Source of the DNA: Metaphire vulgaris
Taxonomy: Eukaryota > Annelida > Clitellata > Crassiclitellata > Megascolecidae
DNA: 64,000 nt
Assembly: GCA_018105865.1 (NCBI GenBank)
Contig: CM030845.1
Span: forward strand, 13,917,390-13,981,389
Direction: 5' to 3'
Shown: positions 10,045 to 49,445 of the stretch, one piece after another
Layout of the letters: the number at the start of each line of letters is the position of its first letter
How positions within the stretch are numbered: the first letter of the stretch is position 1
Notes under the pieces: model-generated
What the model was told of the DNA's origin: nothing
The model's database searches: none
The model's input: the letters and a program-made list of their open reading frames with translations, nothing else
Translations under genes and position numbers: made by a program

Positions 10045-10505
10045 CAGTGATGTGACGACTCGAGACACTCTCGCGTCTCGAGACAGTATTTTCAATGTCT
10101 TGGTCTTGCTGGCCAGTGTCTCGGTCTTGGTCTCGTCATTACTGTCTTGGTCTTGAGATTCAAGACCGAGACAGTAGATTTTTCCACTGGTTTTGTCAGA
10201 AACAAGATGAAACATATCCGACAAATCATCTACAACAAAGCATGCTCACAAATTCAATCGAAAAAATTTAATTGTCGGTTGCAGTCTGTCACAGTTTAGT
10301 TGAGCAACCAAATTTTCGTAATTTTATTGCTGATGTTAATAAAACATTTGTGAATTCTGTTTTGTCTGTTTTCTCAATGTTTAAAATTTCTGTCTTGGTC
10401 TTGAGCCCTAGTGTCTTGGTCTTGACACCTGATGTCTTGGTCTTGAGGGTTAGTGTCTTGGTCTTGGTCTCGGTCTTGCCACTTACTGTCTTGGTCACAT
10501 CCCTG
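10045..10505. mobile_element. hAT MITE with AAGACC/GTCTTG hexamer arrays
   Basis: Termini are CAGTGATGTGACGACTCGAG on the left and CAGGGATGTGACCAAGACAG on the reverse strand. Flanks GCAGTCAG and GTGGTCAG match at 6 of 8 positions, an aged TSD. Subterminal DNA is arrays of GTCTTGGTCTTG and CTCGAGAC. It is a smaller relative of the element at 18025-18807. There is no coding. It lies inside the LINE C-terminus between the codons for HWLPISD and the next block. Confidence 0.8.
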
Positions 10506-10530
10506 GTGGTCAGAAATTGGAAGCCAATGT

Positions 10531-10957
10531 GGGGCCGTCCATAAATGACGTCACGTGATTTTGGAAGTTTTTTTTACTTCCCCCTCGTCACAAAAAGTCA
10601 GACCCCCTAAAAAATGACGTAACAACGCGTTAACCCCCCATCCTTTAGTGTAAAAATTAATGTTTCAATTCACTTATTTCTTGAATGAAGCGGGTATTGC
10701 AATGAATTCATTTGAAAACACTCATTATAATTATTATAGTTGAAGCGAAATTCATAAATTTTTACAAAATCGTTTTTAAAAAATGAATCATAAGTGTAAA
10801 ATACGTTCAACTTTGCGGCAACATAGCATTGCGGTATTAATAACAATATCTAGTATTATGTGACGTCACATTTCTGGAAATCCTCTCCCCAGTCGGCACA
10901 CATCATCACAAATGTTTGAACCCCCCTAAGTGCATGATGTCATCTATGGATGGTCCC
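10531..10957. mobile_element. Harbinger-like MITE (copy 1), 3-bp TSD
   Basis: The left end GGGGCCGTCCATAAATGACG pairs with the reverse-strand right end GGGACCATCCATAGATGACA. Subterminal C-runs (ACCCCCTAAAAAATGACG, AACCCCCCTAAG) lie at both ends. The 3-bp flanks are TGT on both sides, and deleting one flank restores the host LINE codons for LNTLHWLP. A 3-bp duplication fits PIF/Harbinger, although the usual TSD is TWA. The interior is AT-rich and noncoding. Related to 52279-52690. Confidence 0.8.
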
Positions 10958-11117
10958 TGTAGGGTGTTAAGCATAAAATCTGAGATGCTAAAGTAGTGAG
11001 GAACTTTAGCCACAAGATGAGCCACAGCATTTAGGATAGATTGCAGAGTGGAGAGCAGGTTTTTGGGAAGACCAAAATAAAGAGAGTTGCAATAGTCTAG
11101 CCTACTAGCAACTAGCG

Positions 11118-11487
11118 TTGTTGGCTCACTTTCCGAGCCCTTTATGACCCACACTGTCCAGAATATCTGAGTGCGCTGGTGCAGCGAACGACGTCAAATG
11201 AGTCGAGAATGAAGCTTCGGTCGAGTCGTCGAGTCCTACTTCTTGTCCCTCCTCCGTCAAAGACCTCCAAGTTTGGAGAAAGGTCATTCTCCAAAGAGAA
11301 TCCTTTACTTTGGAACTCGTTGCCTGACGTTGTGTCGGAAGCTGTCTCTGCGGAATCCTTTCTTAGGAACTTAAAAACACACCTATTTAATATAGGATTT
11401 AACTGATAGAATTATGTCAGAGTGCTTTTGTCGTAGGCCTTAGCCTTGTTTACTGCGCTGGAGAAATTGTCTAGAAATAATAATAAT
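11118..11487 (+). pseudogene. 5'-truncated CR1/L2-like LINE fragment with TAA tail
   Basis: The plus strand reads TTSNESRMKLRSSRRVLLL, PPPSKTSKFGERSFSKENP, LWNSLPDVVSEAVSAESF and LKTHLFNIGF, then the 3' end TTTACTGCGCTGGAGAAATT with TAATAATAATAA. It is nearly identical to 30520-30900, so the two copies are young and of one subfamily. It was inserted in the opposite orientation into the LINE at 9660-11990. Confidence 0.85.
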
Positions 11488-11995
11488 AAAAGTAACAGAG
11501 ATTTGGCTGCAGACAGAGAAAATGAAGAACAAACAACTATGATTTGCCTAAGTTGGTAAAAACAGGATCGAGAGAGTCTAGCAAAATGCTCTTTGAAGGT
11601 CAAGTTACTGTCAAAATACCAAGGTTCTTGATACAATTGGGAAAGAAAGTTTAGGAAAGAGAGAGTTCAGTGAGTCATAGTCAATTTTAGTGTGCAGATG
11701 TTTAGCGCCAAGCCAGATAAGTTGAGTTTTGTCAGGATTTAGTAGAAGTCTATTAGAGAACATCCAATCCCGAAGAGTTGGAATTACATTGTCTACTGAT
11801 TGAGAGAGCTGAGACTGAGAAGAGTGAGGGCCATGTCTGTAAATTTGAATGTCATCACCATAAAGGTGCACAGTGAAACCAAACGAGCTAATTAAAGAGC
11901 AAAGGTCAGCAGTGTAAAGTATGTACAACAGAGGACCAAGCACTGAACCTTGGTGAACACCAAAAGAGACATGAAACCAGTTTGAGCAGGAAATG

Positions 11996-12995
11996 CAATC
12001 AAGTTCCTAGATACCTTGCGCCAGTTTGGTTTAGCACAGCATATACCGGTAACTGAGCCTACGCACATAAAGTTCACATTCTTGACCCTGTTATAAGACT
12101 TGACTGTGATGTTAAAGATATCTGCGTTTATCCACCGACAATTTCTGATCATAGTCTTGTTACCATCAACTTACCGCATCTACTTTCAAAGCCAATATAT
12201 ATGATTCATCAATTACGTGGCCGGAGCTCGATGAACTTGGATCGACTGAGATCCTCACTCGTCACTAGTCCTTTTTGTCAGAATCCCATGACTAATGCCA
12301 ACAAATCAGATACAGAACTCTTTGATCTGTATAGTACCTCACTCTCCAAGATTGTGGATGAACTACTACCGAAAAAGACAGTGAGAGCCAGGCATCGGCC
12401 ACTTATGCCCTGGTTTGACAATGAATGTCGTTGTCTTCAGAGGGAAACTTGTCATTTTGAGAGATGCTACTGGCAAACTTTTCATCCTGATGATTGAAAT
12501 GAATGGATTACATCTGTCAGAAATCTTCATAAAAGCTACAGTTGTACCATCACAAAGAATCGCAGTAGTGGGAAAATCTTGTGCATCAACACACTGGCCA
12601 TCCACGTAAACTCTAGTCAATATTGTCCTCCATACTCGGCAGGCAGCCAAACACAACAGAGATACCAAGCTTAACAGTTGTCAATAATTATCAAGATGCA
12701 GTGTTGGTTAAAATAGACCGAGTGAGTGCTGACACTACTGGAATGCCACAACCAAGCTTCTCATCAACAAACTCGAAGTTTGAAAAATTTAATGAAGTGA
12801 CAGAACTGGAGCTCAGAACAGTCATAAAAACTCTAAACTAAAATGATGTAAACTGGATCCTCTGCCATCATTCATTCTTGTAGAGGTTTTAGATTAATTA
12901 ATTCCATTCCTCTTACTCATGATCAACCGCTCGTTGAAAGAAGGCTGTCTCCCTGACTCCAAAAAAGAGCTAGTCCATGTGAATGTTGACATCTA
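11996..12995 (+). pseudogene. LINE fragment: endonuclease end, linker and start of reverse transcriptase
   Basis: Plus-strand frames give FLDTLRQFGLAQHIPVTEPT and VYPPTISDHSLVTINLPHLL, which is the SDH motif closing an APE-type endonuclease (about 12120-12180). A long linker follows, including PWFDNECRCLQRETCHFERC (12410-12470). Then comes the entry to the reverse transcriptase, DVKLDPLPSFILVEVLD (about 12845-12895) and INRSLKEGCLPDSKKE. The catalytic part is absent. Several frameshifts are present. It abuts the oppositely oriented LINE near 11990. Confidence 0.7.
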
Positions 12996-13061
12996 AAATT
13001 AGAAGCTGACTGTTTCTAGTGGCAATTGATTTTCAAACACTTTGAAATTGTGCAAAATTAG

Positions 13062-15252
13062 TATTAGATAGATAAATAAACTTCTAGGCCCTTTGTGGCA
13101 CCAAAGCGCCGCTGCAGTCAAATAAAACTCTCAAAAATATATGTCTTTAACTGAGATAGAAAGACAGCACGGGATGGAGACACATCACGAAGGTCTGGAG
13201 GAAGAGAGTTCCACACGTTTGGTCCTGCGATCATAAACGACCTGTCTCCCATTTTGGTGAAGTCCTGTGGGAGACAAGCTTCCTTGTGTCATCAGACCGC
13301 AGGTGTGTGCTCCGATTTGTCGAGCGAAGAAGTTGACAATCCTGGATTAGATAATCCGGAGATTCTCGTCGCAAACACTTGTCGACAAGAGAGATCAGTT
13401 TGTAGTTTATCCTCTTTCTAACCGGAAGCCAGTGCAGTTTTTGCAAGATTGGTGTAATGTGTTCATTTCGTCTGGTACCTGTGATCAGTCTTGCCGCCGA
13501 GTTCTGCACCGCCTGGAGACGCTTTATTTGGGCTTCACTGATTTGGAACAGGAGACTATTACAACAGTCCAGCCTCGTACTAATCCAGGCATGGACCAGT
13601 GCTTCAGCGGTATCACTTGACATTGATAAGGCAATCGCTCTTAAGTTTCGCAATTCAAAGAAACATGTCGAGACCAGGTGAGAGACATGATGTGTCATGG
13701 TTAAGTTTTCATTCAACAGGATCCCCAGATTTCAAACTAGCTTCGATCTAAAAATTTGCACCGAGCCCAGATTTATGCTGGTGAAATTTAATTTCTCAAG
13801 ATGAGTTACTACCGAAGCAGATCAATTCGGATTTCTGAGGGTTTAACTTGAGGAAGTTCATGCGAAGCCATTTGTCAATGTCCGATGTACAGGCCGTAAT
13901 TGTATCAGTAGTTACTTCCATTTCATCAGTGCGATGTGAGTGATACAACTGAATTTCATCAGCATAGAAATGAGAGTTCAGGTAATGAGGTCGAATAACA
14001 TCTTCCAGTTCGCTGACGAACAGCACAAACAGTAACGGGCCTAGGATCGAGTCCTGTGGGACACCATATAGCATGTCTCTGGAGTTTGATGAAATGAGTC
14101 ATAGATGACTTTCGATGTCCAATCGGTTGCAATTCCACTAATACCAAATCTCAATTCCAGTCTTGAGATAAGAATCTGATGGTCTATGCAATCAAAAGCC
14201 GCGGACAGATCAAGTAGCAACATCGTTGTCACTTTTCCACTGTATCATAGATGTCCGATAAGATATGAAGAAGCGCAGTTTCGGTCAAGTGAAATTTGCG
14301 ATAGGGAATTCTTCGGGAATAGCCCATGTGATATTAAATGCGAGTGAATCCTGTTTGCAACAATTTTCTCAATGGTCTTTGAGATGAAGGATAAATTTGA
14401 TATAGGTCTGTAATTTGAGAGTTCATAAGGATCCAGGCTTTGTTTCTTCAAGCGAGGAAAAATAATCGATGTTTTCTCGGACGGCGGGAGGTGCGCTTTC
14501 TCTAGCGAGATATTTATCATGTTCGTGATAAAGTTTAGCAACGGATCGAGGAGCTCCTTCAGTAGGAAAGTCGGGATTGGGTCAAGCAGGTTCGATTTAG
14601 TCGGAGAGTCCATTATTAGCTAATGAATCTCCGTTTCGGTTGCCGGTGTAAACACTGATATATCTACTGCCGAAAACGTCTTGGTTATGACTGGAGGAGA
14701 CGAGATTTCAAGATCTTTTCTAATCTTGAGAACTTTGGTATGGAAGAAATCTGCAAAAGATTCCGCATTTAGACTTTCGGTCGATTTTACGAAAGTTTCT
14801 TTTTTCTTTCCAAGATGTTGAGAGGGGGATTTCCATACTTTTGAGGTTGAGTGACCTTCACTTAAAATTCTTTTTTCCAATAATCATCCTTCTTCCTCCA
14901 TAGAAGGTCAAATTTATTTCTCAAAGTTTTGACCCATTCATTTAAATCAGCTTTGGTGCGAGTTCTCTTGTATTTGTGCTCCAAGCGACGACATGTTCTG
15001 CGAGCAGTTTGACATTCATCGTCGAACCATGTCAGAATTGGTCTACAATTTGTTCGGATAATATGTGTAGGAGAAAACTGATCCGCTACGTTCCGTAGCG
15101 TTTCGTTATATAGAGTAAACATCTCTTCGACTCCACAATTGTCAGGGATGTTTGCTAAAGGGCTTTGTTTGATGGCTTCAATTAGCAGTGGCCAATCGAC
15201 CTTACGCCAGCTGCGCACTTCCTTATAGGATGTCGGTGCGATTGTCCGAGGA
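13062..15252 (-). pseudogene. LINE with TAGAT/GATTA-type tail, linker to 3' end
   Basis: The minus strand starts with the linker RPILTWFDDECQTARRTCRR (about 15050-14990) and reaches SNLLDPIPTFLLKELLDPL and ELSNYRPISNLSFISKTIEK. Then come LLLDLSAAFDCIDHQILISR, a GVPQ(D)SILGPLLFVLFVSEL block and FYADEIQLYHS, where YADD has become YADE. The C-terminus is LTMTHHVSHLVSTCFFELRN, HAWISTRLDCCNSLLFQI and LHWLPVRKRINYKLISLVDK. The 3' region GGCGCTTTGGTGCCACAAAG is followed by TAGAT-like units. The same family recurs at 62770-64000. Dead by frameshifts and the altered catalytic box. Confidence 0.85.
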
Positions 15253-15960: not shown

Positions 15961-16020
15961 AGAATGATGAGATATAATCAATGGAGGATCTACCTCGATA
16001 GTTACTTTTGGCACTCCTGA

Positions 16021-16099
16021 TTATTATTATTATTGATATAGAGACAACTTTTAGAGCACAGTGAGCCTGGTGAAGGCATGGATGGCAACTGGAAGACAA
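16021..16099 (-). repeat. LINE 3'-end fragment with ATT tail
   Basis: ATTATTATTATTATT followed by AGAGACAACTTTTAGAGCAC is the reverse complement of the LINE 3' end ...TTGTC + TAA tail. Only about 80 bases remain before the plus-strand LINE fragment begins. Confidence 0.6.
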
Positions 16100-18024: not shown

Positions 18025-18807
18025 CAGAGTTGTTAACGAGACTTTTTGAAAAGGTCTCGAGACAAGACCAAGACTTTACCCCTCAGGTCTCGAGACAAGA
18101 CCAAGACTTTGCCCATCTGATTCTATAATTCCAATAGGGGTGCTTGGCTAATGTGCACAGGCCCACTGTAACCTAGTGCGTAAGAAACTGAAGAAAATTT
18201 ATTAACCCTACTAGAAACAAACATTCCACGGTTCCAAAACTTCCACCTACCTTACAAATCCAGATGTAGTTCCTCTGGATTCCATAATGACATTTTTACA
18301 ATGGCAGCATTGCGCCTGCCATTTGTTTTCGTCTTTCGGAATGATGCAGAGCGAGTTAAACGCAAACTAAATGATGCACGGTGTCTTCAACTTCACCCCA
18401 TTTGGGCCATTCCGGTCAGGTATTTCCTTTTCAGACTTTTCCGCCATTAATTCAATTTCATTGCAGTTTAAATTATTGTTGGACACTGACCTGATTATCA
18501 CTAACAATGAAAGCGGTTAATAAAACGGAAACACGGATAACTTCCGGACAAAACATAGACATAAATAATTTGATGAAGTTGCCATTTATCACGGAGAGCC
18601 AGGTCTCGAGTTCTGTGAGAACTCGAAACTTTCCAAAACTCGAGACTTTTGGCTAAAAGTCTCGAGACAAGACCAAGACTTTACCTCTGTGGTCTCGAGA
18701 CAAGACCAAGACTTTGCCCCTGTGGTCTCGAGACAAGACCAAGACTTTCTGTGGGCAAACTCAAGTGCACTCGAGTTCGAGACCGTTGTCTCGAGGTCAC
18801 AACTCTG
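18025..18807 (-). mobile_element. hAT element with AAGACC hexamer arrays and a retained BED exon
   Basis: It has a perfect 8-bp TSD, AAAACTCC (18017-18024 and 18808-18815). Termini are CAGAGTTGTTAACGAGAC and, on the reverse strand, CAGAGTTGTGACCTCGAGAC. Arrays of CTCGAGACAAGACCAAGAC lie at both ends (18045-18110, 18600-18750). The interior carries a BED zinc-finger exon on the minus strand. Transposase domains beyond that exon are missing, so it is an internally deleted derivative. Confidence 0.9.
18251..18383 (-). pseudogene. BED-type zinc-finger exon of a hAT transposase
   Basis: The minus strand reads SLCIIPKDENKWQAQCCHC then KNVIMESRGTTSGFVR. It ends at the splice-donor-like GTAAG|GTAGGTGG, exon end 18251. 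Family knowledge: BED fingers of hAT transposases have Cys-x2-Cys (here C..C in QCCHCK) and a later His pair, usually placed just after TTSNFLRH-like text; the His pair would be in the next, deleted exon. The finger binds subterminal repeats in studied hATs such as Ac. There is a stop upstream and the start was not determined. The exon lies between the two arrays, so it is likely the element's own. Confidence 0.65.
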
Positions 18808-18877
18808 AAAACTCCGTAGGGTATTTGCCTATCAGACATCATATTGATAGTGTGACGTAATTTATGGATGATGCTTT

Positions 18878-26780: not shown

Positions 26781-27322
26781 ACATTCCGAAAGTTGCTGAT
26801 TTTGCTACAGGAGCAAATACTTTATCATACTGTTCGTCTAATTTTTGTTAGAAACCATCAGGTACTAGACAAGCCTTGCACCTTGTGATATTTCATTTTT
26901 TGCCTGTTTTGGCTTTATAGGCCCATTTACTGCCTATGGTTAATTTTCCATCAGGAAGTTATGTTAATTTAAGTTTCATTTTGCAGAGATGTAGCAAGTA
27001 CACAATGCTTCAAGTACAAGTAAAAGTACAAGTACCTAGCCTCCGAGTACAAGTACAAGTACAAGTACTTGCATTCCAAAAACTCCGAGTACAAGTACAA
27101 GTACCTGGCCTCCGAGTACAAGTACAAGTACAAGTACCTGGCCTCCAAAGTACAAGTACAAGTACTGAAGATTACTGTGGTAACTAATCCATAAGACTGC
27201 GAGTACAAGTATAAGTAGCGAAGCCTCAAGTACAAGTACCGATCCTCATAGCCAAATACAAACAGCAAGTAGGCCTACACTTTATTAACGGGTAGCTGTT
27301 TGTCACGGTTATTCAATAAAAT

Positions 27323-27562
27323 GGTGCTAGAACAAAATGTCCGAGGACAAAATGTCACGAAAAAATGTGACGGACAAAATGTCATGGGGACAAAATGTCA
27401 GCGGAAAAAAGTCAGCGGACAAAATGGTATCCTAACCTAACCCTAACACTAACCCTAAGCCTAAACTGTGACATTTTGTCCGCTGACATTTTGTCCTCAT
27501 GATATTTTGTACATGACATTTTGTCCGTGACATTTTGTCCTCGGACATTTTGTCCGGCCACG
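27323..27562. mobile_element. Foldback element with telomere-like spacer, 8-bp TSD
   Basis: Direct repeats AATAAAAT at 27315-27322 and 27563-27570 bound two inverted arms of about 100 bp. The arms consist of GGACAAAATGTC-type units, and the spacer (27429-27470) reads CCTAACCCTAACACTAACCC. Termini GGTGCTAGAACAAAATGTCC and, on the reverse strand, CGTGGCCGGACAAAATGTCC. Noncoding. The 8-bp duplication suggests hAT-type mobilisation. It lies inside the AAGTAC hAT element. Confidence 0.75.
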
Positions 27563-27570
27563 AATAAAAT

Positions 27571-27930
27571 TGACACTATTAGCATCTAAATATCATCACA
27601 GTGGCACTTAAAAAATTAGAGATGATAGTCTTGCATCAGTCATATTAGCCCTATGCGGTCTCGCGATCAAGCCAGCTTGGCTAAATACGCGTTGAATTGG
27701 TGCACTAGAAGCAGGCACACTAAGGGCTCTAATGGCTGCATTATACAGCCTGTTAACTCCTTTCTATTAACTTCACTGTTCCAAAATACAATGGTATCTG
27801 TGGCTTCATCATACATATTGTTGAGTTCCAGGTACTTGGCTATCTGTGAGGATGTGCTTGTCATCAAAGGAACATCATTACTGGTATCCTTGAAGTACAT
27901 GTAACCAGAGATGTAGCAAGTACACAATGC
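27571..27930 (-). pseudogene. hAT transposase C-terminal dimerisation domain remnant
   Basis: The minus strand opens with STSSQIAKYLELNNMYDEAT, TIVFWNSEVNRKELTG (27850-27740) and, after one frameshift near 27720, reads RALSVPASSAPIQRVFSQAG then LIARPHRANMTDARLSSLIF. This is the hAT C-terminal dimerisation motif (PASSAPxERVFSxAG...RxxM). Residues that differ from the usual motif are few (Q for E). It is most likely the host element's own transposase. The catalytic RNase H core is missing. Confidence 0.8.
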
Positions 27931-28286
27931 TTCAAGTACAAGTACAAGTACAAGTACCTGGCCTCCAGTACAAGTACAAGTACAAGTACTTGCATTCCAA
28001 AAACTCTCACTTAACTACATGGATTTTGAAAATTAGTACAAGTACAAGTGCAGTACATGGCCTCCAAGTACAAGTACAAGTACAAGTACTCAAAATTTGT
28101 ACTGGTTACAACTATAAGTACAAGTACAAAGTACTACATCTCTGTCATTTTGTATAAATAACAACGTTTTTTAAACTGATACAAGCACAGGACTGACTAC
28201 AAAATGAATATATGAACTAATTTAATAACGTTTGAGTATTTGTGCTGCGGGTCAGTAGCACAAAGGCGACTGTTTGTTGACCAGTC

Positions 28287-32310: not shown

Positions 32311-32760
32311 GTTTCATGATTTCAGTTACTGTATTAATAGTTTCAATGAGTCTTTCTGGTCCTTGTCCATTACTCGATCTTGCTGATATTCTAGCTTCTG
32401 GAAATGCTGGCTCTGGTATAATTGGTTATTGAATCAATTGCTATTCATCAGGGGCAGAGGGATGGTTCCACATTGGGGATGACTTGGGATCAGAGATGTG
32501 CGGATGCAGAAATGTTGGGACCGCGAAGAATCTGCATCCACCAAGTTTGGAACCACGGAAGATCCGCATCCGCAAGCGCTTCTGCTATCAGGTTCCGCAG
32601 AAGATCCGCATCCGCAGATTATAGTAAATAGATCTATTGTTCAACTAACTGTCCCCAACTTTTCTGCAGGTCCTACTGTACTGCCTATGCTTAACCTACT
32701 TCAACTGCAGTAAAATTATTGAATAGTCCATGCATGGACATAATAAAAGAGAGGTTATAT

Positions 32761-32782
32761 TTATAATAATAATAATAATAAT

Positions 32783-32829
<47 letters not shown>
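32761..32829. repeat. TAA and TAG microsatellites
   Basis: Runs of AATAAT and then GTAGTAGTAG (about 45 bases of TAG units). A similar mixed tract lies at 34563-34612. Both tracts are next to a GTGACGTAC or GTACGTCAC motif (about 32829 and 34553), in inverted orientation. Confidence 0.85.
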
Positions 32830-32862
32830 TGACGTACTGGCTATTTATATGTACAACTAGAA

Positions 32863-33588
32863 AGATGCTCGCTTCGCTCGCAGTGCAGGATAATACTAAA
32901 ACCCAATCATTGAATTCATGCTGCTGAACAATGTTTCAATGATGTACATACGCCACGTAGCCAAGCTCTGACACTGCAACGTACGCTTCGTCAAATGCTT
33001 CGCCTGGCTGTTTGCTTCGCGTGGCCGTTCACTTCGCGTCGCCGTTCGCTTCATGAGTTGTACACATTATGACACTGCAACATACGCTTTGTCAAACGCT
33101 TCGCGTGGCCGTTCGTTTCGCGTGGCCATTTGCTTCGCGTGGCCATTCGCTTCGCGTGGCCGTTCGCTTCGCGAGGCCATTCGCTTCGTGTGGCCGTTCA
33201 CTTCGCGAGTTGTACATACTATGATGCTGCAACGCGTGCGCCGTCAACAACGCCCGGCGTGGCCGTTAACCCGCGAGTTGTACATACTATGACGCTGCAA
33301 CGTGCGCCGTCAAACACTTCACGTGGCGTTAAGCTTCACGTGGCCGTTAAGCTTCACGTCGCCGTTAAGCCGCGTCGCCGTTAAGCTTTGCATCGCCGTT
33401 AAGCCGTGAAGCCTAAGGTTCCAGAACAACCAATCAGAACGCTCACCCAGCCAACCAATCAGAACGTTTGAAGGTAATGAATGAGAACGTCACACAGCCA
33501 ACCAATCAGAACGCTCACACAGCCAACCAATAAGAACGCTTGAAGGTAACAGAGAGACATACAGAGCAAGGATCTTAATATTATAGAT
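32863..33588. repeat. Unclassified CpG-rich interspersed repeat (copy 2)
   Basis: Starts GAAAGATGCTCGCTTCGCTC and ends AGGATCTTAATATTATAGAT, as copy 1 at 672-1272. It has a longer internal run of CGTTCGCTTCGCGTGGC-type units and extra AAGCTTCACGTGGCCGTT units. Inserted within the GCGGAT hAT element. Noncoding. Confidence 0.65.
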
Positions 33589-34199
33589 GTCGAGCCTTCT
33601 GCGTCGGCTAAACTTGCTACTTTTTCCCAGGATGACCCAAATATTCTGCAAGTCTAGCACGAATATGTCCGCGAGGTACGCCTGCTCTGTGCAAGAGCAG
33701 GAATTATGGTATGCATGGCGTGAGAAGACATGAATAAACACAATATAAATAATAAGAGAACATATATTATATATGTCGCTCAAAGCAATGGCATATTCAA
33801 TAAAGACAATGTGGATCCGTGCAATACAATATCTGAGCTTCTAGTAATGTCTACTTGAGTGTTCATCATAATGCACACAGTTATAACAGCATCAGGGCAA
33901 AGTAACAATGTTCAAAGCATGGACGCATTTACACTATACAGACTACACAGTAATAAAGCTCCTTTCTGATCTAGATTTGAGCTTCCAACAATAGGCCTAT
34001 CCGACATACCTATCACAGATAAAAGCTACATAATATAAACTCAACATAAGAGCACAAATCATAAACTAATAATCTATAAACACTATGGCACAAGACGAAT
34101 AGAGCTGACAATGCAATTCATATAAGATAATTACCTATCTGCTTCACACAAGAGTTCGAATTGCTCAACATCAGTGATTCTGCACCAAAGTTACCTTAT

Positions 34200-34560
34200 T
34201 TTTCGTGTTCCTTTGGTCCTCCAGGCTCTGCGGCCATTTTCGCCTGTTCCTTGCCCGTGCTTCCGGCCTTCCTTCGGTTTCCTTCCGGTTCTTTTCTTCC
34301 GACGTCTCCATTCTTAGAAGGACAGACGCGTCTAACCGGTCCGAAGTCCCAAGCCAAAAAGAACCTGTCTCCGTCTCCTTTCTCTCTCGCTGCCCGCTTC
34401 CCACCTCAATCCTGGCCCCGCCCAAGCCGAGCTAAGTCCGCGCCTCAACCTTGGGCATGCCCAGCCTATACGGCTGCCACCAGTTTCCACAGCCAGGGTG
34501 AGGGAGATTCAGTGATGGCGAGCAAATAAGTAAGTGTATGCGCGAGCCGCGACGGTACGT
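34200..34560 (-). other. GC-rich segment with a possible transposase 5' exon
   Basis: On the minus strand, ATGGAGACGTCGGAAGAAAA (about 34310) opens a basic frame, METSEEKNRKETEGRPEARA then RNRRKWPQSLEDQRNTKNK. It reaches a donor-like AAATAAG|GTAACT near 34195. Local CpG content is high, like a promoter. It is not similar to a family I recognise; it could be the 5' exon of the host hAT element. Confidence 0.25.
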
Positions 34561-34578
34561 CACAGTAGTAGTAATAAC

Positions 34579-34612
<34 letters not shown>

Positions 34613-35377
34613 GCTGCACGTTCATTCAGTTCTCCAACCTGAATTTTCTTGATCAGTTTGTCACATTCGTCTTTATTAGCCATGTCAGACTATTCGCCTT
34701 AAGTACTGTTCATTTGTCGAGCTTTCATCTATGGAAAACTAATCTAAGTCGAATAAATGTTATTGATTACTGGTGGATAATTTAATCAGACGATTGTCTT
34801 TGAGTTTGAAATGGAAACATCTTTAAATAGATGCATTAAACGAAATAATGGGGCAAACTTTTAATGTGCCAACCTTTGATCTACGGCAATTAATTTAAGC
34901 CGAAAATTTTCATAATTGTCAAAATGTTACCAGTTGTTATGATCCACGGATAATCCGCATCCGCCAGCCATTTTGGAACTCTGATCTGCGGAGGCCCGCG
35001 GATCCATGAAATTCCTGCGGATCTGGATTCGCCGGCGGATCTATCCGTGATCTGCACATCTCTGCTGGGGATGCGTCCTCCCCACCGGGCTTTTTTTTGC
35101 TTGTCAGCATTTCAGGGGGTTTACCAGTACGAGTCGGTATGCCACTACATGTTGGCTGGTTATTATTTGTGTGCAAAACATAGCTAATGACCTTTTTTTG
35201 CTTGTCAGCCGTTTTCGGCAAGTTTACTTTACATTTGCTGGGCAAAACAATGCTCATTAACTTTTTTTGCTTGTCAACCTTTTTAAGGATTTCATTTCAT
35301 CCCCCCATCAACTTCCTAGAAATTCATTGCATCCCCCCACCAAGAATTCTTGGAACCGCCATTGCTACCCTATTCAT

Positions 35378-35516: not shown

Positions 35517-36676
35517 CAGAGATGTACGGATCGCGGATTGATCCGTCCGCGGAGCCGGGTCCGCAAGGATTTTAAGGATCCGCGGACCTTGGCGGACCCA
35601 AGTATAAAAAAAGCTGGCGGAGGCGGAGTATCCGCGGATCTTGAAAACTGGCAACACGCACACACAGACACACAAATGCATACACATTGTGCATAGCTAT
35701 TTGCTACCTTTTCAAATTACGCCCTGAATTTTATGACTATTGCATGGTTGTAGATGACCAAAGTGCCAATTATCTGTTTCATCAACAGAAACGCTAAGTT
35801 AGGAGGTTTAGGACTACATAAGAGATCAGAATAACTGACGGGAGACAGCTTCCGACAAGTTCAAACTTCAAAGTCCAGTCAACCCGACTCGGATTCCATC
35901 ATTTTCCAAGTCATCTAATCCCTAGTCACTTAATCATCATCACTTAACCCCCCGGCACGTAGGCCTAATCCCCAAGTGAATGGGTGTAACATTTAAAGAC
36001 CGGTGAGAAGAAAGGATTTCAATTGAGACCAATTCAATAGTGATAGCTAGTTAGCTACACGAGTTCTCTTTTAGTGTCAGTCGATTTCGTCAAAGGCCAT
36101 TGAGTAAACAAAGGGGTGATTATGTCGGGGGTTTCATTTCATCTAGTGTACCAGGAGGGATAATGCCGGGGGTGGAATCATGGAATTGTCCTGGGGAGAA
36201 TGTCCGTTCTCCTTTGAAGAGGTAGGCACCCTATTTTGGAATTTCGAGCGTCTAATTGGTTATTAAGTAACCAATTTTTTGCCTGAATTCGCTGTGTACT
36301 GTTTGAGGTGCCCAGTTGTGCACTCCACACAGTATTCATATATGAACGTTTTTGAATAACTTTTATTTTATATTTTAAAAAAATCTATGTTATGCTTTAC
36401 ATGTAGCGTCTACTTTCTTACGACTATTTGTGCAATGAGTCTTGGACCTATTTACATAATTTTACTGCTTATTGAAATACATTAGGATAGGTCCTAGGCT
36501 TGCTGAACCATGGGAGGGGTGTTAGTAAAAGACCGAATTTATTTACTATCTGCGGATGCGGATCCTCCGCGGCTCCTGATATTGGATATTTGCGCGGATG
36601 CGGATCCTCCGCGGATCTAAACCTGGCGGAGCCGGATTATCCGCGGTCCCAAAATTGTTGGAACCGCACATCTCTG
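35517..36676. mobile_element. hAT element with GCGGAT hexamer arrays, perfect 8-bp TSD
   Basis: Flanked by CACGACAG at 35509-35516 and 36677-36684. Termini CAGAGATGTACGGATCGCGG and, on the reverse strand, CAGAGATGTGCGGTTCC. GCGGATCC-type arrays occupy 35525-35645 and 36545-36660. At 1160 bp it is shorter than the copy 450 bases upstream. The interior holds a GGACATAAT-type repeat (36090-36205). No transposase was recognised. Confidence 0.9.
36090..36205 (+). repeat. GGACATAAT-type repeat, copy 1
   Basis: AGTAAACAAAGGGGTGATTA through CTGGGGAGAATGTCC matches the reverse complement of 62546-62660 along its length. Repeated units of the form (G)GGGGATTATGTC are its core. Boundaries are approximate. 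Noncoding. Confidence 0.65.

Positions 36677-37973: not shown

Positions 37974-38060
<87 letters not shown>
37974..38060. repeat. TA and TG microsatellites
   Basis: About 45 bases of TA followed by about 40 bases of GT units. Confidence 0.95.
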
Positions 38061-38063
<3 letters not shown>

Positions 38064-38139
38064 CAAATTAAGATGATTAAAAAAACGGCATGACCACATT
38101 TTACTTAATGCTGTATTAGACATTGCCTATGCACAAGTT

Positions 38140-42423: not shown

Positions 42424-43324
42424 CAGACATGGGTCAATTACAATTATAATTGTAATTCAATTGTAATTAATTACATTTTGCCAATCTAATTGTAATTGAT
42501 CTGTGGAAAGTTCAAATACATGTAATTGTAATTGTAATTGTCATGTGTGTAACTGTAATTGTAATTGAGCTATTGTAATTGATTTACCCAATTACAGGAA
42601 TGTGAGTTTTATAAGTTCTAATAGCGTATTAACATGTATGAGTCGAAGTCTTGTCAGTCTATGAATGTATGGCAGTGAATACATTGGATGGTTAGTGAAT
42701 TGTCAAAGCACAACAGTTATTGGTAAATGGACTCACTGCTCTGGTCAGTTGCCATGCAAACATTTACTTACCGGCATTTACTTTTTACTGCCTTTCAATT
42801 GGAAGAGAACCAGCTTATCATTTGTCTACTTCCTGTGTTCTGCGGCTGCACTTTTTTGTGAATGAAAGTTTAATGCCAGTAAAGATGAGCGTAGATCAAG
42901 CAGGAGTAATATGGAATTATTTAGAAAAGTCTGATGACTTTAATAATGCTGTTTCCAATGCAAATGTTAAAGTGAAGTGCCGGTTTTGTGGTGAATTAGT
43001 GTCATGCTCGAAAAAGGCTACTTCAAAATTGTTGACTCATTTGCAGGTTTGTGAAACTTTGTGTTACGGTTTTTTAAATAGGCCGTAGCATATGAATTTG
43101 TTGAACTAATTTATGTTAATTATTTTAGACACTTAAGTTTTTAAAGAAGCAGAAAGAGGAATGAAAAGTAATTGTAATTGTAATTGTAATTGACACATTT
43201 GTAATTGTAATTGTAATTGGTCCCAATGTAATTGGCTGTAATTGTAATTGTAATTGTAATTGACAAAAATCCATATAATTGTAATGTAATTGTAATTGCT
43301 TAAAACGTAATTGACCCATGTCTG
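42424..43324 (+). mobile_element. hAT element with GTAATT hexamer arrays, perfect 8-bp TSD
   Basis: CTGGCTAT flanks it at 42416-42423 and 43325-43332. Termini CAGACATGGGTCAATTAC and the same inverted (GTAATTGACCCATGTCTG). Arrays of GTAATT units lie at 42432-42590 and 43165-43310. It retains one BED exon on the plus strand. 901 bp, internally deleted. Confidence 0.95.
42876..43048 (+). pseudogene. BED-type zinc-finger exon of a hAT transposase
   Basis: The frame reads MPVKMSVDQAGVIWNYLEKS, DDFNNAVSNANVKVKCRFCG and ELVSCSKKATSKLLTHLQ. C-x2-C (CRFC) and the LLTHL His fit the BED finger, and the IWNYLEK opening (hydrophobic, W, aromatic) is the usual BED lead-in. ACTCATTTGCAG|GTTTGT gives a splice donor just after the first His (about 43047), so the second His lay in a lost exon. 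Two ATGs are possible (42876, 42888). It belongs to the element carrying GTAATT arrays and differs clearly from the BED exon at 18251. Confidence 0.8.
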
Positions 43325-43328
43325 CTGG

Positions 43329-44060: not shown

Positions 44061-44203
44061 GCTTTGTTTTTGGCCCTTCTCTTCTTCTGTTCCTCTCTAG
44101 TAACCCATGGAAGCTTTTTGTTAAGTGTCCGCTGTTTTGGTATTGTCAAATCCATAACCCTTGACATGCAATTTTTAAATATTTTCCAGCTTTCTTCTGC
44201 ATT

Positions 44204-45001
44204 TTAATCCTTTATCATGCTTCCTATGTTCATATCTTCGATCATCTTCCTAGCCAGATCGTAGTTCCCCCGGAAATAGTTTTTGTTTTTTTGGCTGCGT
44301 GTGCTCTCGATGTCTTCTGCTAAAATTACATCAAATGTCACTGTCTGGCGGTCACTTGTGCCTAAGTTTTGTCCAACCATCATATTCTTCACTAACTGAT
44401 CATCTGAAGTAATTATTAAGTCCAGTGTGTTACCTCCTCTCGATGGTTCAGTGACATGTTGCGTGAGGAAATTGTCATCCATGTACTTAAGAAATCTCTT
44501 GTCCTGGTTCCTGTCTGCCTCCATGCTTTCCCAGTTAATATGATAGTTGAAGTCACCCATTATTAGTACATTTTCCTTGGCTACTATATCTAAAATCCTA
44601 AACAATCCAATATCTATTTCCTCCTTTGCATCTGGGACCCAATAGCATACGCTTAATAGTATTTTTTCTTTTTTGCATCTGATTTCACGCCAAATATTTT
44701 CTCTAAAATTGTCATCTTGAATATCTCTTCTTTCCATTGCATTCAGTTCCTCTTTGACATACAGTATTACCCTCCCAGCTCCGTGACCCCTGGCACTTTG
44801 GTTTTCCCTGTCCTTTCAAAACATTACATACCCATTCAAATTTAGCTCTCCATCGTCTATTTCCTGTCTGGCCCAGGTCTCTGTAATACCTATAATATCT
44901 GGTCTGATTGAAATGATGCACATTTCCAACTCAGCTTTTTTACTTACGCTTATAATACTTCTGGCATTTGTATAAAAACACATAAGTTTCCTCTCTATCA
45001 A
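44204..45001 (-). pseudogene. CR1-like LINE endonuclease domain
   Basis: The minus strand reads LMCFYTNARSIISVSKKAEL, IISIRPDIIGITETWARQEI (active-site Glu, about 44890), then after frame changes ERRDIQDDNFRENIWREIRC, LLSVCYWVPDAKEEI, VLIMGDFNYHINWESM (Asp and Asn, about 44560) and PSRGGNTLDLIITSDDQL. The SDH box is written GTSDRQTVTFDV (44360-44325), so its His is lost. Two frame breaks (about 44816 and 44720) and a stop at 44204 are visible. Confidence 0.8.
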
Positions 45002-45549
45002 AGCCCTACTTTTCTTCCTGGTGTCAGTGCTATTTATTGTTATATTTTAAAGACAGTTAGAGACGCCCCTATTTTTCAATCGCCCTTCCCCAGTAGAATG
45101 TTTGCTACTACAGCCACATCTATTACTAACTAACCTACCTAAGCGTTTACTACTACTAAAGTCTCCACTACTTCTACTAGGACTACCACTGCTACTATCT
45201 GTTCTAACTGCCTTTGCCCTCAGTTTAAATGCCTACACAGGCAAGCAGACTTCACTGCGTGAAATATCCTCCTTGCCACCATGTCTGCTCCCATCCAATT
45301 AAGATGAATCCAATTAAGATGAAGCCCATCCCTGGCAAGGTATCCTGATCTCTGTGCGTTGAGTTTGAGAAAACAGTTCAAGAAATGTTTCGCTTATCGG
45401 GATGAATGGTCTGATTGTTCGTCGAAAATAAGACTCTGAAAATTCTGTTGACTCTGTCATTGAAGACTTGTCTTCTGATCTGCAAATGGAAATTATTGAT
45501 TTGCAATCTAGTGATATCCTGAAGGACAAAGTTAAGGAAGGAAATTTGA

Positions 45550-45990
45550 TATCTCGTTTGATAGATATCAAATATCTTGTTCATGTCAAAGATCATTGAA
45601 CATATTGTCTCAAAGAAGATCAAGCCACACCTTAATAGGTTTGATCTTCTGCCTAAATTTCAATCAGCATATTGTCAAAACTACTCAACAGAGACAACAC
45701 TGCTGCACATTCTCTCTGAAGTTCTCGAGGCTGTGGACCAAGGGAATGTTACCACACTGGTGATGCTCGATTTGTCATCTGCTTTCAATTGTGTAGACCA
45801 TGAAATACTTATGCGTAGACTTAACCTGAAGCTGGAGATACGTGATAAAGCACCGTCATGAATTAAATCATATGTTGCTGATCGATCGTCGCGGAATCTC
45901 TACAAAGATGTGCTATCTTGCCCAGTGAAGATGAGCTGTGGCATACCGCAGGACTCGGATCCTTAGACCGTTGCTCTTCGTGTTGTTCCT
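45550..45990 (+). pseudogene. LINE reverse transcriptase fragment
   Basis: FMSKIIEHIVSKKIKPHLNR, LPKFQSAYCQNYSTETTLLH, TTLVMLDLSSAFNCVDHEIL (AFD has become AFN, so the catalytic Asp is lost) and a GIPQ(D)S block near 45940. The fragment then stops and a minus-strand LINE begins. Upstream 45400-45575 is a decayed linker. Confidence 0.7.
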
Positions 45991-46019
45991 CAGAGAGCTT
46001 GAGGTCCGTTTGCTTTAAA

Positions 46020-46790
46020 AGGGCGATCTCCAATTTTGCTATAGGTTCTTGAGGTGACCAGCATATGTGTATCATGATCATCCGATTGAAGCCCAAAAGA
46101 TCTTTGAGTCGATCATACAAGTCTGCAGTCCTGTATCAAATAGTGTGGTGCTTCTCTCAGGCATTTGTCAACTAAAGAGTTTATTTTATATTTAATTTGC
46201 TGTCTAACAAGCAGCCAATGAAGACCTCTAAGAACAGGTGTAATATGCTGCCACCACCTTGTCTTAGTGATGAGGCGAGTAGCCACATATTTTACTGACT
46301 GCAATCATCATCTTTGAGTTTCAGGAAGCAGATCTAGTAGGCTGTTGCAGTAATCAAGTCTAGTGTTAATCAGTGAATGAACTAACATTTCAACAGCCTC
46401 AGTAGATACTGTTCCAAATTGCCGCAACTCGTAGAAACTGCCAGACACAACCTTATTAATGTGCTGAGACATGGTCAGGTTCTCATCCTGCATTACACCA
46501 AGATTTCGGACAACTTCAGACCACTGTATTCCATATTACTGATATTGATCTATTTCAGTGCAGATTTTGCAACTTGACCCTTCTTCCCTAGACAGATCAT
46601 CTCCGTTTTTCCAAAGTTGAGTTTCAGCCTGTTTCTCCGAAGCCAATTCTCAACTTCCTCAATGCAGTTTGTCAGTTCAGTACTTTACCAGACTCAGCTG
46701 CTTCATCTGGATAGTGGCTGTCATATAGCTTTATATCATCAGCATCGAAATGCTGTAAATGTCTGGTAAACTGGCGAGGAATAATGCGAT
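46020..46790 (-). pseudogene. LINE reverse transcriptase end and C-terminal fragment
   Basis: The minus strand reads FDADDIKLYDSHYPDEAAES (about 46750-46690), then QDENLTMSQHINKVVSGSFY, HSLINTRLDYCNSLLDLLPE (46493-46310) and KYVATRLITKTRWWQHITPV, LHWLLVRQQIKYKINSLVDK (46300-46150). Similar to the family at 13062-15252 and 62770-64000. It faces the plus-strand fragment at 45550-45990, head to tail inverted. Confidence 0.75.
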
Positions 46791-47213
46791 TTTCTAATGT
46801 TCTGCTAGTGTTTCACCTAATGATGACAACTGATTACCAGTAAATAGATCATCCATATATGTTAGGTGAGTTTCCATGTTACCTCCTTCATTTAGTCTTG
46901 AGGCACAAAGTTTCTTTTTAAAAACTTACTTTGTTTGAAATTGTAAATATTTCATGTTGCTGCTTCAAGGCACTCCATGTAGCTTTAGCTGTTACCTCTT
47001 TATGCACCTGATGTAGTTGGCTGTCTTCCAGTAAAAGTCCAATTGTTGCTCTTTCCTTCCAGTCCTTTGTCATTCTACATTGATTGAATCTGGTGAGTCT
47101 TGAGAGATTACTTCCCACAGATCTTCATTAATCAGTAGAAATTTGACCTTGAATTTCCATGTCCAATAGTTACTGTTATTCAGTTTTTCGATCCGTAGAG
47201 CTGAGTCTGCCAT
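46790..47213 (-). pseudogene. copia gag fragment
   Basis: The minus strand begins at the ATG at 47213: MADSALRIEKLNNSNYWTWK then FKVKFLLINEDLWEVISQD. It continues (shifts near 47100) WKERATIGLLLEDSQLHQVH, KEVTAKATWSALKQQHEIF and, after another break, GGNMETHLTYMDDLFTGNQL (to about 46800). This is the Ty1/copia gag region (UBN2-like). The 147-base leader leads to the primer-binding site at 47361. The element is truncated near 46790 by LINE sequence. Confidence 0.8.
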
Positions 47214-47360
47214 CTGATAAGCTTTAAACAGTTACAATGAATGTAGACACAATTACCAGTTCTGTACTTTATCATCAATTGACCTTTATATCGCAGTCAT
47301 GCTGTCGTCACTGGAGTCAAATGTTTATCTGGTAATACGAAAAACTGTTTTTCCTGGTTG

Positions 47361-47375
47361 CCTGGGCCCATAACC
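47361..47375 (-). other. Primer-binding site complementary to initiator tRNA-Met anticodon arm
   Basis: Plus-strand CCTGGGCCCATAACC lies directly next to the LTR start TGTTAAATCA. It equals the anticodon stem-loop of metazoan initiator tRNA-Met, so the minus-strand element RNA would pair with it. Family knowledge: Drosophila copia is primed by a tRNA-iMet half-molecule cut in the anticodon loop. Confidence 0.75.
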
Positions 47376-47506
47376 TGTTAAATCATGATCCGATCAAGCG
47401 TACTGAATACCTTTTAGACTGTTTCAATGTAGAGATACATTTTATTTAAACTGAACTTCACATATATAATGTCTACACTTAGTACACAACCAGAAGAACA
47501 TAGAAG
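47376..47506 (-). repeat. copia 5' LTR, truncated
   Basis: TGTTAAATCATGATCC and ACTGAATACCTTTTAGACTG, ATTTTATTTAAACTGAACTT match the LTR at 18878-19080. Homology ends at AACATAGAAGAG, where a hAT-like terminus (CATTGGCGTAGCTAGG) begins. About 130 bases remain. Confidence 0.75.
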
Positions 47507-48245
47507 AGCATTGGCGTAGCTAGGAAAAAATTCCGACCGGTGCAACCGCCGCCATCCCCCTTTTTCCTCCCTCCCCTTCTTTTCTTTCCCTTCTCTCTCC
47601 TCTCCCTCCCCTCCCCTTTTTAATGGGAGGTCCGGGGGTATAACTCCAGGAAAAATTTTAAAAATCACAAATGCTTGCATGTGAATTTTAGCACATTTTA
47701 GACACAAAAGACACTTGGGATGTACCACATTCTTCTCTGTGATTGTGAACGTTAAAAATTTCAGGCTCACTTCTCAAGTAGGCTAGTGAAGTTTTTATAA
47801 TAAAATCATAATGTACAACACGTACTATAGGCCTACACTATAGTACACAGTTCCAGACGTCACTGTCTCATTACGTTTAGCTTTTGACGCGAAATTCACG
47901 ATTACCGCAATACATGTTTCAATAATTATTGTTAATTAATTACTGTATTTATAGTATTGTCGACTTACAGTACCTGATATCTGCATCAGTTTCATGACCT
48001 ACTATACAGCTGGCGTCGTAGCTATCAAATTGTGGAAACTGACACATTTTATTATACAAAGTACATTCAGCAATCGCAGCCATAATCAACTTGATTTCGG
48101 AAGAGTACTCAATACGAATGTCAGAAGAATGAAGATATTTTGCCCTATTTGAATGATCGGCAGTGACACATCGGAAAACCATCCTACCCCAACTGAAACA
48201 CTGAAACCTATGCCAATCCTGAACTAGGAAAATGTAGCTATTGGG
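47507..48245. other. hAT-like left terminus and unassigned sequence
   Basis: CATTGGCGTAGCTAGG at 47507 looks like a hAT-type end, followed by a C-rich tract to 47635. No matching right end was found. Further on, a 109-codon minus-strand frame (48278-47949: SSEIKLIMAAIAECTLYNK, CQFPQFDSYDASCIVGHET) is open but not recognised. It ends near a donor-like ATCAG|GTACTG at about 47980. Confidence 0.35.
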
Positions 48246-48261
48246 TGGTGTGTGTGTGTGT

Positions 48262-48585
48262 CTGTATGTGTGTGTCATGTTCTACTATATGGTAGCAAAT
48301 GCTGGACTCTCTATCGACGTCATATCAGAGCCCTTGAGGCCTTTCACAATCGCTGTTTACGATCCATTCTATCTATAAAGTGGCAAGACAAAGTGCCAAG
48401 CACTGAGGTGTTGAAAAGAGTGAACTGCACAAGTGTGGAAGCGACATTGGCGAGGATATGGTTGAGATGGACTGGACACGTTTCTCGAATGGAGGATGTT
48501 CGTTTGCCAAAAATTATTATGTATGGTGAGCTTGTCCATGGACAAAGGACACAAGGTGGTCAGTATAAGCGATACAAGGACCAGG
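48262..48585 (+). pseudogene. LINE C-terminal region, part 1 (before hAT insertion)
   Basis: The frame reads LLYGSKCWTLYRRHIRALEA, HNRCLRSILSIKWQDKVPST, RIWLRWTGHVSRMEDVRLPK and YGELVHGQRTQGGQYKRYKD. These are the post-reverse-transcriptase blocks of RTE-like LINEs (LYGSE.W, RI.WQD, LRW.GHV.RM). It is interrupted right after YKD by the AAGGAC hAT and resumes at 49446. Confidence 0.85.
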
Positions 48586-48926
48586 CAGTGATATTAACAA
48601 GGACCGACCCCCCAAGGACGAGGATAAGGACGAGGACCGACCCTCCAAGGACGAGGACAAGGACGAGGACTTACCCTGCAAGCACAAGGACCACAAGGAC
48701 TGACCCTCAAGGACAAGGATCAAGGACAAGGACAAGGACCAACCTCTGTCAGACAAAAAAGTCAGAAAGGAAAAAACCAAGCACAATTTCATTTCGAATC
48801 ACAAATTAGAAAAGCAAAAAAAATTTTTTTAATCATAATGTAGTCAACATCAATGCTGCATTTCAAATGCGCCTTTGACTTTAGCCACCTAGCTATGTTA
48901 CTGCACTTAATTAGAAATTGTCAAGT

Positions 48927-48968
<42 letters not shown>

Positions 48969-49445
48969 GAAAAAGTGTTTCCAGCAGCTGATCAGTCATG
49001 CACACACGGTGAGGTCTAATTATGAGACCACTGCGAAAACACTCGTTCAACTGGAGCCGATGTCGCAGGGAAACAAAGAATTCTGCTAAAGAATCAACTG
49101 GTATTATAAAGGAAACAATGACTAAACATTTAGAGTAACTCAAAACAAGTATGTAGCCAAAATATAAATCCACATACTACTCTTACCTTGGAACATAATT
49201 ATCAGTACAATTGAAAATGGCATACAAGTAATTTGGTCCTTACAAGGACTTTTCAAGGACTAAGTTACAAGGACCAGGACAAGGGCCGATCTGCAAGGAC
49301 GAGGATAAGGACGAGGACCGAACCCCCAAGGACGAGGATAAGGACGAGGAGTGACTCCCCAAGGACGAGGACAAGGACAAGGACTTCAAATTGGTCCTTA
49401 AGGAGTCCTTAAGGACAAGGACCAGGACAAGGATTAACATCACTG
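48586..49445 (-). mobile_element. hAT element with AAGGAC hexamer arrays, perfect 8-bp TSD
   Basis: GGACCAGG flanks it at 48578-48585 and 49446-49453. Termini CAGTGATATTAACAAGGACC and, on the reverse strand, CAGTGATGTTAATCCTTGTC. Arrays of AAGGACGAGGAC units lie at 48600-48745 and 49235-49435. A transposase C-terminal remnant is on the minus strand, next to a TAA microsatellite (48928-48966). Confidence 0.95.
48967..49180 (-). pseudogene. hAT transposase C-terminal dimerisation domain remnant
   Basis: The minus strand reads, in one frame, FPATSAPVERVFSQ (about 49080-49035). After a frameshift it reads SGLIIRPHRVCMTDQLLETL (49035-48975). Together they are the hAT dimerisation motif. Everything upstream (core and BED) is missing. 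It gives way directly to TAA repeats and a LINE-like GCGCCTTTGACTTTAGCC 3' end at 48870-48966, so a retroposon tail may have landed in it. Confidence 0.8.

Follow-up and report, generated by a model that had tools for sequence, protein, structure and literature searches.

The 64,000-nucleotide stretch of the Metaphire vulgaris genome analyzed here (assembly GCA_018105865.1, contig CM030845.1, positions 13,917,390 to 13,981,389 of the forward strand; hereafter the window) contains seven elements with hAT-type ends and, just inside those ends, repeated hexamer motifs that differ between elements. Our explanation, which taken as a whole we consider probable, is that these are non-autonomous hAT transposons whose termini are held by the catalytic core of a transposase and whose subterminal arrays are read by its BED fingers, with finger and array changing together. 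Sequence comparisons support placing the AAGTAC and AAGGAC elements and the AAGACC element at 10045 (elements are named by their first window position) in one hAT lineage with the AAGGCC, CAGGAC and AAGCAC classes from outside the window, because remnants of the transposase C-terminus occur either within these elements or in linked copies.

All seven elements lie where a sequence-only reading of the window had put them, the spans being entire elements and not arrays. Its counts of target site duplications (TSDs) are borne out as well, with perfect 8-bp duplications in five elements (26984, 35517, 18025, 48586 and 42424), 7 of 8 positions matching at 32491 and 6 of 8 at 10045. TIRs (terminal inverted repeats) of hAT elements begin 5'-YAG, and the window elements have short TIRs opening in this way together with the 8-bp TSDs of hAT elements. 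When the window was scanned for CAG...CTG ends with minimum matches of 9/11 in the TIR and 7/8 in the TSD (the latter limit excluding the 10045 element), six of the seven elements were recovered along with three further hits; the same scan of Markov-1 resampled windows (n = 20) gave no hits in 19 and two hits in one.

Transposase lineage and array layout

A transposase C-terminus within an AAGGCC element (locus L053) served as the query for a genome search, which gave 150 matches of 54-100% identity (150 scored of 2,737 candidates). Eleven right ends were fetched from these matches, picked across the identity range, and a CAAG- or CAGG-type array is present at 10 of them: AAGGCC at L083, L084 and L085, AAGACC of the 10045 type, by reading, at L086, AAGGAC at L087, CAGGAC at L089, L090 and L091, and AAGCAC at L092 and L093. 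The AAGTAC and AAGGAC elements of the window contain remnants of the same C-terminal domain, and the 10045 element has, by reading, a right end like the one at L086, where a transposase C-terminus is present. Peptides from the AAGGCC, AAGGAC, AAGTAC, AAGCAC, AAGACC and GTAATT types exceed the Pfam cut-off for the hAT C-terminal dimerisation domain (26-74 bits against 21.4 in these six types), and the C-terminal peptide of L002, a sister copy of the 26984 element, is above the PF05699 cut-off. L039 and L040 also show Pfam similarity to the RNase H fold, by which hAT transposases cleave, at scores below the cut-off.

Between motif classes the C-termini are 42-64% identical (in a matrix without AAGGAC), and those of the GTAATT and TCTAAT elements are 37-51% identical to the CAAG rows. 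In a tree that differs from this matrix by the loss of rows L019 and a broken copy in L039 and the addition of the AAGGAC sequence of L087, the CAAG and CAGG classes together with GTAATT and TCTAAT are separated from nine further hATs in the genome with support of 98/97. On these comparisons GTAATT is a deeper branch of the wider clade, with a different terminus. Thus, the proposal of a single hAT lineage stands for AAGTAC, AAGGAC and AAGACC of the 10045 type; no transposase was found for the 18025 type, nor for GCGGAT among the end pairs from 100 listed of 268 genome sites of the GCGGAT terminus CAGAGATGTGCGGAT. The only end pair above 2.3 kb among those 100, C2:8112489-8116603, was rejected as a GCGGAT transposase source: of its 4,115 bp, the 1,088 that were read contain a frame resembling reverse transcriptase and no transposase. 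An AAGGAC array at L017 that was considered part of a neighbouring hAT gene's element belongs to a separate element.

One possibility is that the common terminus is a generic hAT terminus and that the families share no closer lineage. Other hATs in this genome begin CAG or TAG, often then NG, and the distance of GTAATT and TCTAAT from the CAAG rows, the two transposases not found and the weak support for a CAAG-only group would all be expected if this were so. The CAAG families nevertheless agree in their C-termini, in unit length and, where intact, in their extended ends, which read GTTAACATC or GTCACATC before NCTG, and we regard a merely generic terminus as unlikely.

The arrays of this lineage have a common layout. 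At the element ends AAGTAC occurs 37 times against 0.4 expected from the flanks, AAGGAC 26 times against 0.6, and CAATTA (the reverse complement of TAATTG) 28 times against 0.3 at the ends of the 42424 element; motif copies per window element range from 10 (GCGGAT) to 37 (AAGTAC). The hexamer phases in the sequence-only reading were arbitrary, and its five hexamers are not all distinct: when re-phased, AAGTAC, AAGGAC and AAGACC are one motif, C[AG]AG followed by TA, GA or AC, respectively, while GTAATT and GCGGAT remain apart. Counted in segments hand-picked as arrays, the class dinucleotide occupies 215 of 225 sites for AAGTAC (TA), 65 of 83 for AAGGAC (GA) and 61 of 70 for AAGACC (AC). Outside the window, the AAGGCC class has GC at 62 and AC at 27 of 93 sites, the AAGCAC class has CA at 17 and GC at 11 of 34, and the CAGGAC class, beside 11 CAGGAC sites, has 20 C[AG]AG sites, with GA at 9 of them, GC at 5 and AC at 3. 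Arrays of mixed composition, either GC with AC or CA with GC, have the appearance of intermediates. The top lag in the 15-60 bp range is 33 bp in eight arrays, covering AAGTAC, AAGACC (18025), AAGGAC (two elements), AAGGCC, CAGGAC, AAGCAC and L074, and the peak was reached by none of 300 resamples in each. The 33-bp unit reads as four hexamers followed by a 9-bp spacer. In five of the seven window elements the motif has the same orientation at both ends although the TIRs are inverted, and the two AAGACC elements (10045 and 18025) differ from each other in terminus and unit length. GTAATT arrays have no clear period (peaks reached by 93 and 10 of 300 resamples), and the long tandem array claimed for GCGGAT did not materialize, there being 4-6 scattered copies per end and a lag-6 autocorrelation of 0.23-0.29 against a base of 0.25-0.26.

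An alternative history is that the families became distinct in other hosts and reached this genome through separate horizontal transfers, in which case the binding-site reading would hold and switching within the genome would fall. The C-terminal identity between motifs indicates that the splits are old, and families are closer internally, with 80-93% DNA identity among the 39 other AAGTAC copies scored and 85% identity between the CAGGAC copies L089 and L090. The common 33-bp unit and the mixed-dinucleotide arrays instead point to descent with change, though both could predate arrival, and we give separate entry a substantial chance, somewhat short of even.

That the arrays are inherited with the elements is clearest for AAGTAC. 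The eight best-scoring copies, the window copy included (40 candidates scored of 3,233 in the 728-Mb assembly), all carry an array at both ends, with 14-23 motif copies per end; the TSD differs in each and is perfect in seven. Absence of the arrays from sibling copies had been named beforehand as telling against the sequence-only reading. Since each of the eight copies has arrays at both ends and its own TSD, the AAGTAC arrays are a family trait and not late microsatellites. At the level of the genome, CAGNGATGTTAACAAGNNC has 1,232 exact sites (a single total for all dinucleotides together) and its reversed control none. Likewise CAGAGATGTGCGGAT has 268 exact sites, against none for its reversed control, and the 100 sites listed form 32 convergent pairs within 6 kb and two close pairs in the other order. 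It could still be argued that the arrays in general arose by microsatellite expansion, or serve a host factor, without being read by the transposase, since their sequence is simple and tandem and reading by the transposase is itself deduced from sequence. This alternative is very improbable in light of the eight AAGTAC copies, the common unit with its spacer, the fixed orientation in five of the seven window elements, and the way motif classes track transposase subfamilies in the ends read.

Termini and BED fingers across families

A terminus that stays fixed while the hexamer switches, as first envisaged, does not describe these families, as the terminus varies too. In the window, four of the seven elements match the common terminus CAGNGATGT exactly at each end; the 48586 element has one mismatch to it at one end, the 18025 element one mismatch at both ends (CAGAGTTGT) and the 42424 (GTAATT) element two at both ends (CAGACATGG). 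The ten array-bearing right ends of the CAAG lineage comprise five with exact CAGNGATGT (L083, L084, L085, L086 and L092), two with one mismatch (L087 and L091) and three (L089, L090 and L093) at which no terminus was recognisable.

Other families in this genome differ further, with termini that include CAGACTTGG, CAGTGATGGG, TAGAGCTGTAC and TAGGGCTGTTG. TIR, TSD and motif are present at both ends for CAGTGATGGGT with TCTAAT (L040), TAGTGCTGTTA with AACCGA (L051, L052), TAGACCCCTGC with CGGGCC (L021), TAGGGCTGTTG with CGATTA (L024, L025, L027), TAGGGGTCTGT with CGGGTA (L037) and CAGACTTGGAG with CAAGGC (L074, and L077 with weaker ends). The TAGAGCTGTAC/AATCGG family (L043-L072) has ends and TSD in 22 of 26 loci, and a terminus beginning TAGAG goes with GCCGAA at L081 (TIR 9/11). 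Among the loci read, 15 motifs were counted in 16 element families (the window's five, three single-end classes and others) with several termini, AAGGCC and L074 sharing CAAGGC; the arrays at L032, L023 (TAACTA) and L029 (GGTGCA) had no tie to a TIR and were excluded. L074 and L077 combine the CAAGGC motif of another family with the CAGACTTGG terminus, which also forms the left end of L039's GTAATT relative; terminus and array combine independently.

The BED fingers bear on how the arrays would be read. BED exons adjoin arrays in a CAAGGA element on C9 and in the left part of an AAGGCC element on C66 (left end 43632). In the C9 element, whose middle 2.9 kb is unread, a BED exon and a C-terminus accompany a perfect TSD and, at each end, an array and a TIR. 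A third finger comes from the GTAATT relative on C39 and four more come from other families. N-terminal BED domains of C66 (AAGGCC) and L039 (GTAATT) are above the Pfam cut-off (about 31 bits against 20.6). Read-out residues were taken as H-7 to H-1, counted back from the zinc-binding His, in a register set by the zinc ligands and the Hermes paper. They are TTSGFTR for CAAGGC (C66), TSSGFKK for CAAGGC in another family (L074), VTSAFTK for CAAGGA (C9), ATSNLLT for CAATTA (the GTAATT relative), NTSNLVQ for AATCGG, NTSNLRR for AACCGA and TTSNLKS for GCCGAA (L081). Across the seven families read, the residues differ between motifs. The two CAAGGC families have similar fingers and different termini (CAGTGATGT and CAGACTTGG).

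Several observations weigh against our explanation. In the tree, which comprises 21 hand-picked sequences (one or two per subfamily) and 56 columns, support for a CAAG-only group is 74/56, and the right end at L088 has no array within the 950 bp fetched. Unit length is not uniform, with peaks at 21 bp in the 10045 array and at 54 and 27 bp in that of L086 (two or three hexamers and a further 9 bp), at 38 and 32 bp in the right-hand array of the window's AAGTAC element, and at 56 and 35 bp in the L087 array, which is decayed. Exact CAGNGATGT is absent from the right end of the C9 element (CAGTGTTGT) and from all three CAGGAC ends, which have one, two and three mismatches at best; the lack of an intact CAGNGATGT end among the CAGGAC copies sampled lowers our confidence slightly. 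The finger-motif map within the CAAG lineage consists of two fingers (C66 and C9), all fingers read lying outside the AAGTAC, AAGACC, AAGCAC and CAGGAC classes. L074, the third CAAGGC-like case, has no C-terminus, and the C9 BED frame is broken, with its zinc His assumed to lie in an unread exon. The GCCGAA pairing is unsure, there being two overlapping candidate elements in L081, and the BED domains of L049, L053, L073 and L075 were not assignable to a motif and were left out. In Hermes, mutation of inner sites did not dramatically lower transposition (PMC10368747).

Fingers were also used as probes for further CAAG families. All 150 matches to the L039 finger (150 scored of 494 candidates) are 77-100% identical to it and were read as GTAATT-type, and the 40 matches to the C66 finger (67-100% identical) were read as the AAGGCC family itself. 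CGGATC words at L049 were too few to link it to GCGGAT, and PDB sequence matches for the fingers were too weak to be used.

Some non-autonomous copies retain the finger itself. The TAGAGCTGTAC/AATCGG family has an open frame across the finger at all 26 loci that were read, and stops are absent from 146 of the 150 listed BED matches of GTAATT type. Over 47 codons in 25 copies there are 31 synonymous and 33 non-synonymous changes, a ratio biased by the choice of copies by BED score. A BED-only protein from such copies could act as a competitor of the transposase. Two frames with two BED matches each, G000:C25:9212014-9212745 (302 amino acids) and G000:C1:30519778-30520164 (391 amino acids), are possibly domesticated genes.

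Features of the window and related elements

Coordinates of the elements in the window and of related elements elsewhere in the genome; positions without a prefix are window positions
Feature	Position	Strand	Remarks
Non-autonomous hAT, CAAGTA(C) motif	26984..28144	+	TIR CAGAGATGTAG both ends; TSD TCATTTTG; 8/8 fetched copies alike
Left CAAGTA array	26996..27239	+	top period 33 bp
Right CAAGTA array	27933..28134	+	oriented as left array; top lag 38, not 33
hAT transposase C-terminus remnant (PASSAPIQRVFSQAGLIARPHRA...)	27611..27727	-	in 8/8 copies; coordinates derived
Two inverted blocks of a 14-15-bp repeat (ACAAAATGTC...), mid AAGTAC element	27332..27556		same inverted self-match in copies of the element
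Left-end sequence of the AAGTAC element, internal copy	27906		CAGNGATGT and same next bases; beside right array
Non-autonomous hAT, CAAGGA(C) motif	48586..49445	+	TIR CAGTGATATTA / CAGTGATGTTA; TSD GGACCAGG
Left CAAGGA array	48599..48739	+	33-bp units
Right CAAGGA array	49243..49433	+	33-bp units; orientation as left
hAT transposase C-terminus remnant (FFSRILCFPATSAPVERVFSQ)	49031..49093	-	broken frame; coordinates derived
Short hAT, CAAGAC/CGAGAC motif (reverse-complement orientation)	10045..10505	-	TIR CAGTGATGTGAC / CAGGGATGTGAC; TSD 6/8; 21-bp units, right end
hAT, CGAGAC/CAAGAC motif	18025..18807	+	TIR CAGAGTTGT; TSD AAAACTCC; 33-bp units
Non-autonomous hAT, CAATTA (= TAATTG) motif	42424..43324	+	TIR CAGACATGGGTCAATTAC both ends; TSD CTGGCTAT
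BED finger remnant	42882..43046	+	L039 sister copy above Pfam PF02892 cut-off
Non-autonomous hAT, scattered GCGGAT motifs	32491..35064	.	TIR CAGAGATGTGC; TSD 7/8
Second GCGGAT element	35517..36676	.	TIR CAGAGATGTAC / CAGAGATGTGC; TSD CACGACAG
Further short element, CAG ends	4459..4817		ends CAGCGATTCTC / CAGCAGTTCTC; perfect 8-bp TSD
Further short element, CAG ends	57634..57877		ends CAGCGGCGCAG / CAGAGGCGCAG; perfect 8-bp TSD
CAAGGA element	C9:10823211..10827842		4,632 bp; TIRs CAGGGATGT and CAGTGTTGT; TSD ACAACAGG both sides
Longer relative of the 42424 element	C39:4450005..4453544		3,540 bp; TSD CTTCGCTC
hAT, contrast case with no hexamer array flagged at its ends	L041:1404..5119		TIR CAGGGCCGGAG 11/11; TSD CATATGAT; 917-aa (amino acid) frame

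A proposed mechanism and its relation to known hAT systems

Three points are inferred: binding of the hexamers by BED fingers, joint change of finger and array, and the resulting isolation of the transposases from each other. In the mechanism we propose, the terminus (CAGNGATGT in most) would be the cleavage site gripped by the catalytic core, and the subterminal array would be a bank of binding sites for the N-terminal BED finger, with several fingers of a transposase multimer on one array, an arrangement seen in structures of the Hermes left end. The layout of the bank would be kept in the CAAG lineage, which we take from its features to be Tol2-like: each unit, usually of 33 bp, has a row of hexamers followed by a 9-bp spacer, and the hexamers are mostly CAAG plus a subfamily-specific dinucleotide (TA, GA, AC, GC or CA). 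When the base-reading residues of a finger change, the changed finger would favour copies with matching units, and exchange between 33-bp units could spread the new dinucleotide through an array, such that the arrays, at about 10-40 sites per element, would be rewritten to match through unit exchange and turnover. Non-autonomous copies would follow whichever transposase binds them.

A more ambitious form of this proposal, which we hold only tentatively, is a two-layer address system in which a shared terminus read by the core is joined to a fixed layout whose barcode, CAAG and two further bases, is exchangeable and is recognized by the BED finger. Such barcodes would be rewritten at 10-40 sites together by way of mixed arrays, sister transposases would be orthogonal inside a single nucleus, and terminus and barcode could be recombined, as in the CAGACTTGG end with a CAAGGC array.

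If our explanation is correct, the genome offers a natural series of pairs of BED finger and DNA site within one transposase lineage, on a common array layout, which opens to test how a BED finger chooses its bases and how a transposon alters dozens of sites in step with the enzyme. Such pairs could serve as non-cross-reacting transposons for gene delivery if their fingers prove orthogonal. When arrays of this kind are masked as simple repeats, a part of hAT elements that is probably functional is lost from view.

Parts of this arrangement have precedents, which we compare here on the basis of the available portions of the cited papers. The fish element Tol2 has three subterminal repeats of about 30 bp beside its right TIR and a four-exon transposase (PMC8151067), and AAGTACTT adjoins its left TIR (PMC10368747). 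The related picture in Tgf2 is of 17-18 subterminal repeats per end, with transposase forms that lack the N-terminal zinc finger binding poorly (PMC4890040). The likeness of our elements to Tol2 lies in AAGTAC-type subterminal sites and in units of 33 bp here compared with about 30 bp there; unlike the case of Tol2 and Tgf2, a single lineage is represented in this genome by six motif classes of CAAG or CAGG type. The BED finger of the house fly element Hermes reads AAG(T/C) subterminal repeats through Q64, S66, N67, R70 and neighbouring residues (PMC10368747), and these four correspond to positions within the H-7 to H-1 segment compared here; a 599-aa frame of L040 matches Hermes chains in the PDB (E 1.1e-18 to 2.9e-19). 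Whereas the Hermes repeats are asymmetric between the ends and are not described there as phased units, the arrays here are long and phased, with a changing dinucleotide.

That hAT binding motifs differ between elements is already published, for different species. The study of Herves, an Anopheles element, states that the regions bound differ in sequence between hATs and that this ensures specificity (PMC3143072), and our elements resemble Herves, Ac and Tag1 in that each has its own subterminal motif; the Herves comparison is made across species, and ours within one genome and one lineage. hAT-derived BED proteins of the CGGBP/hAT-19 group, which is marked by a CGGBP1-type BED together with a Hermes DNA-binding domain, bind diverse motifs, four hAT-encoded BED proteins match their own subterminal regions, and at least eight hAT-derived BED proteins of the coelacanth bind distinct motifs (Yellan 2021, PMC8097297). 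The proteins of that study are mostly domesticated, and in the portion available no conserved array unit or comparison of termini is described. A literature search, from which subscription journals were mostly absent, found no description of a genome in which different motif classes share a conserved array unit. The principle that hAT elements differ in their binding motifs is known from these systems, and what is new in detail in M. vulgaris is the occurrence of several versions on one conserved layout in a single genome.

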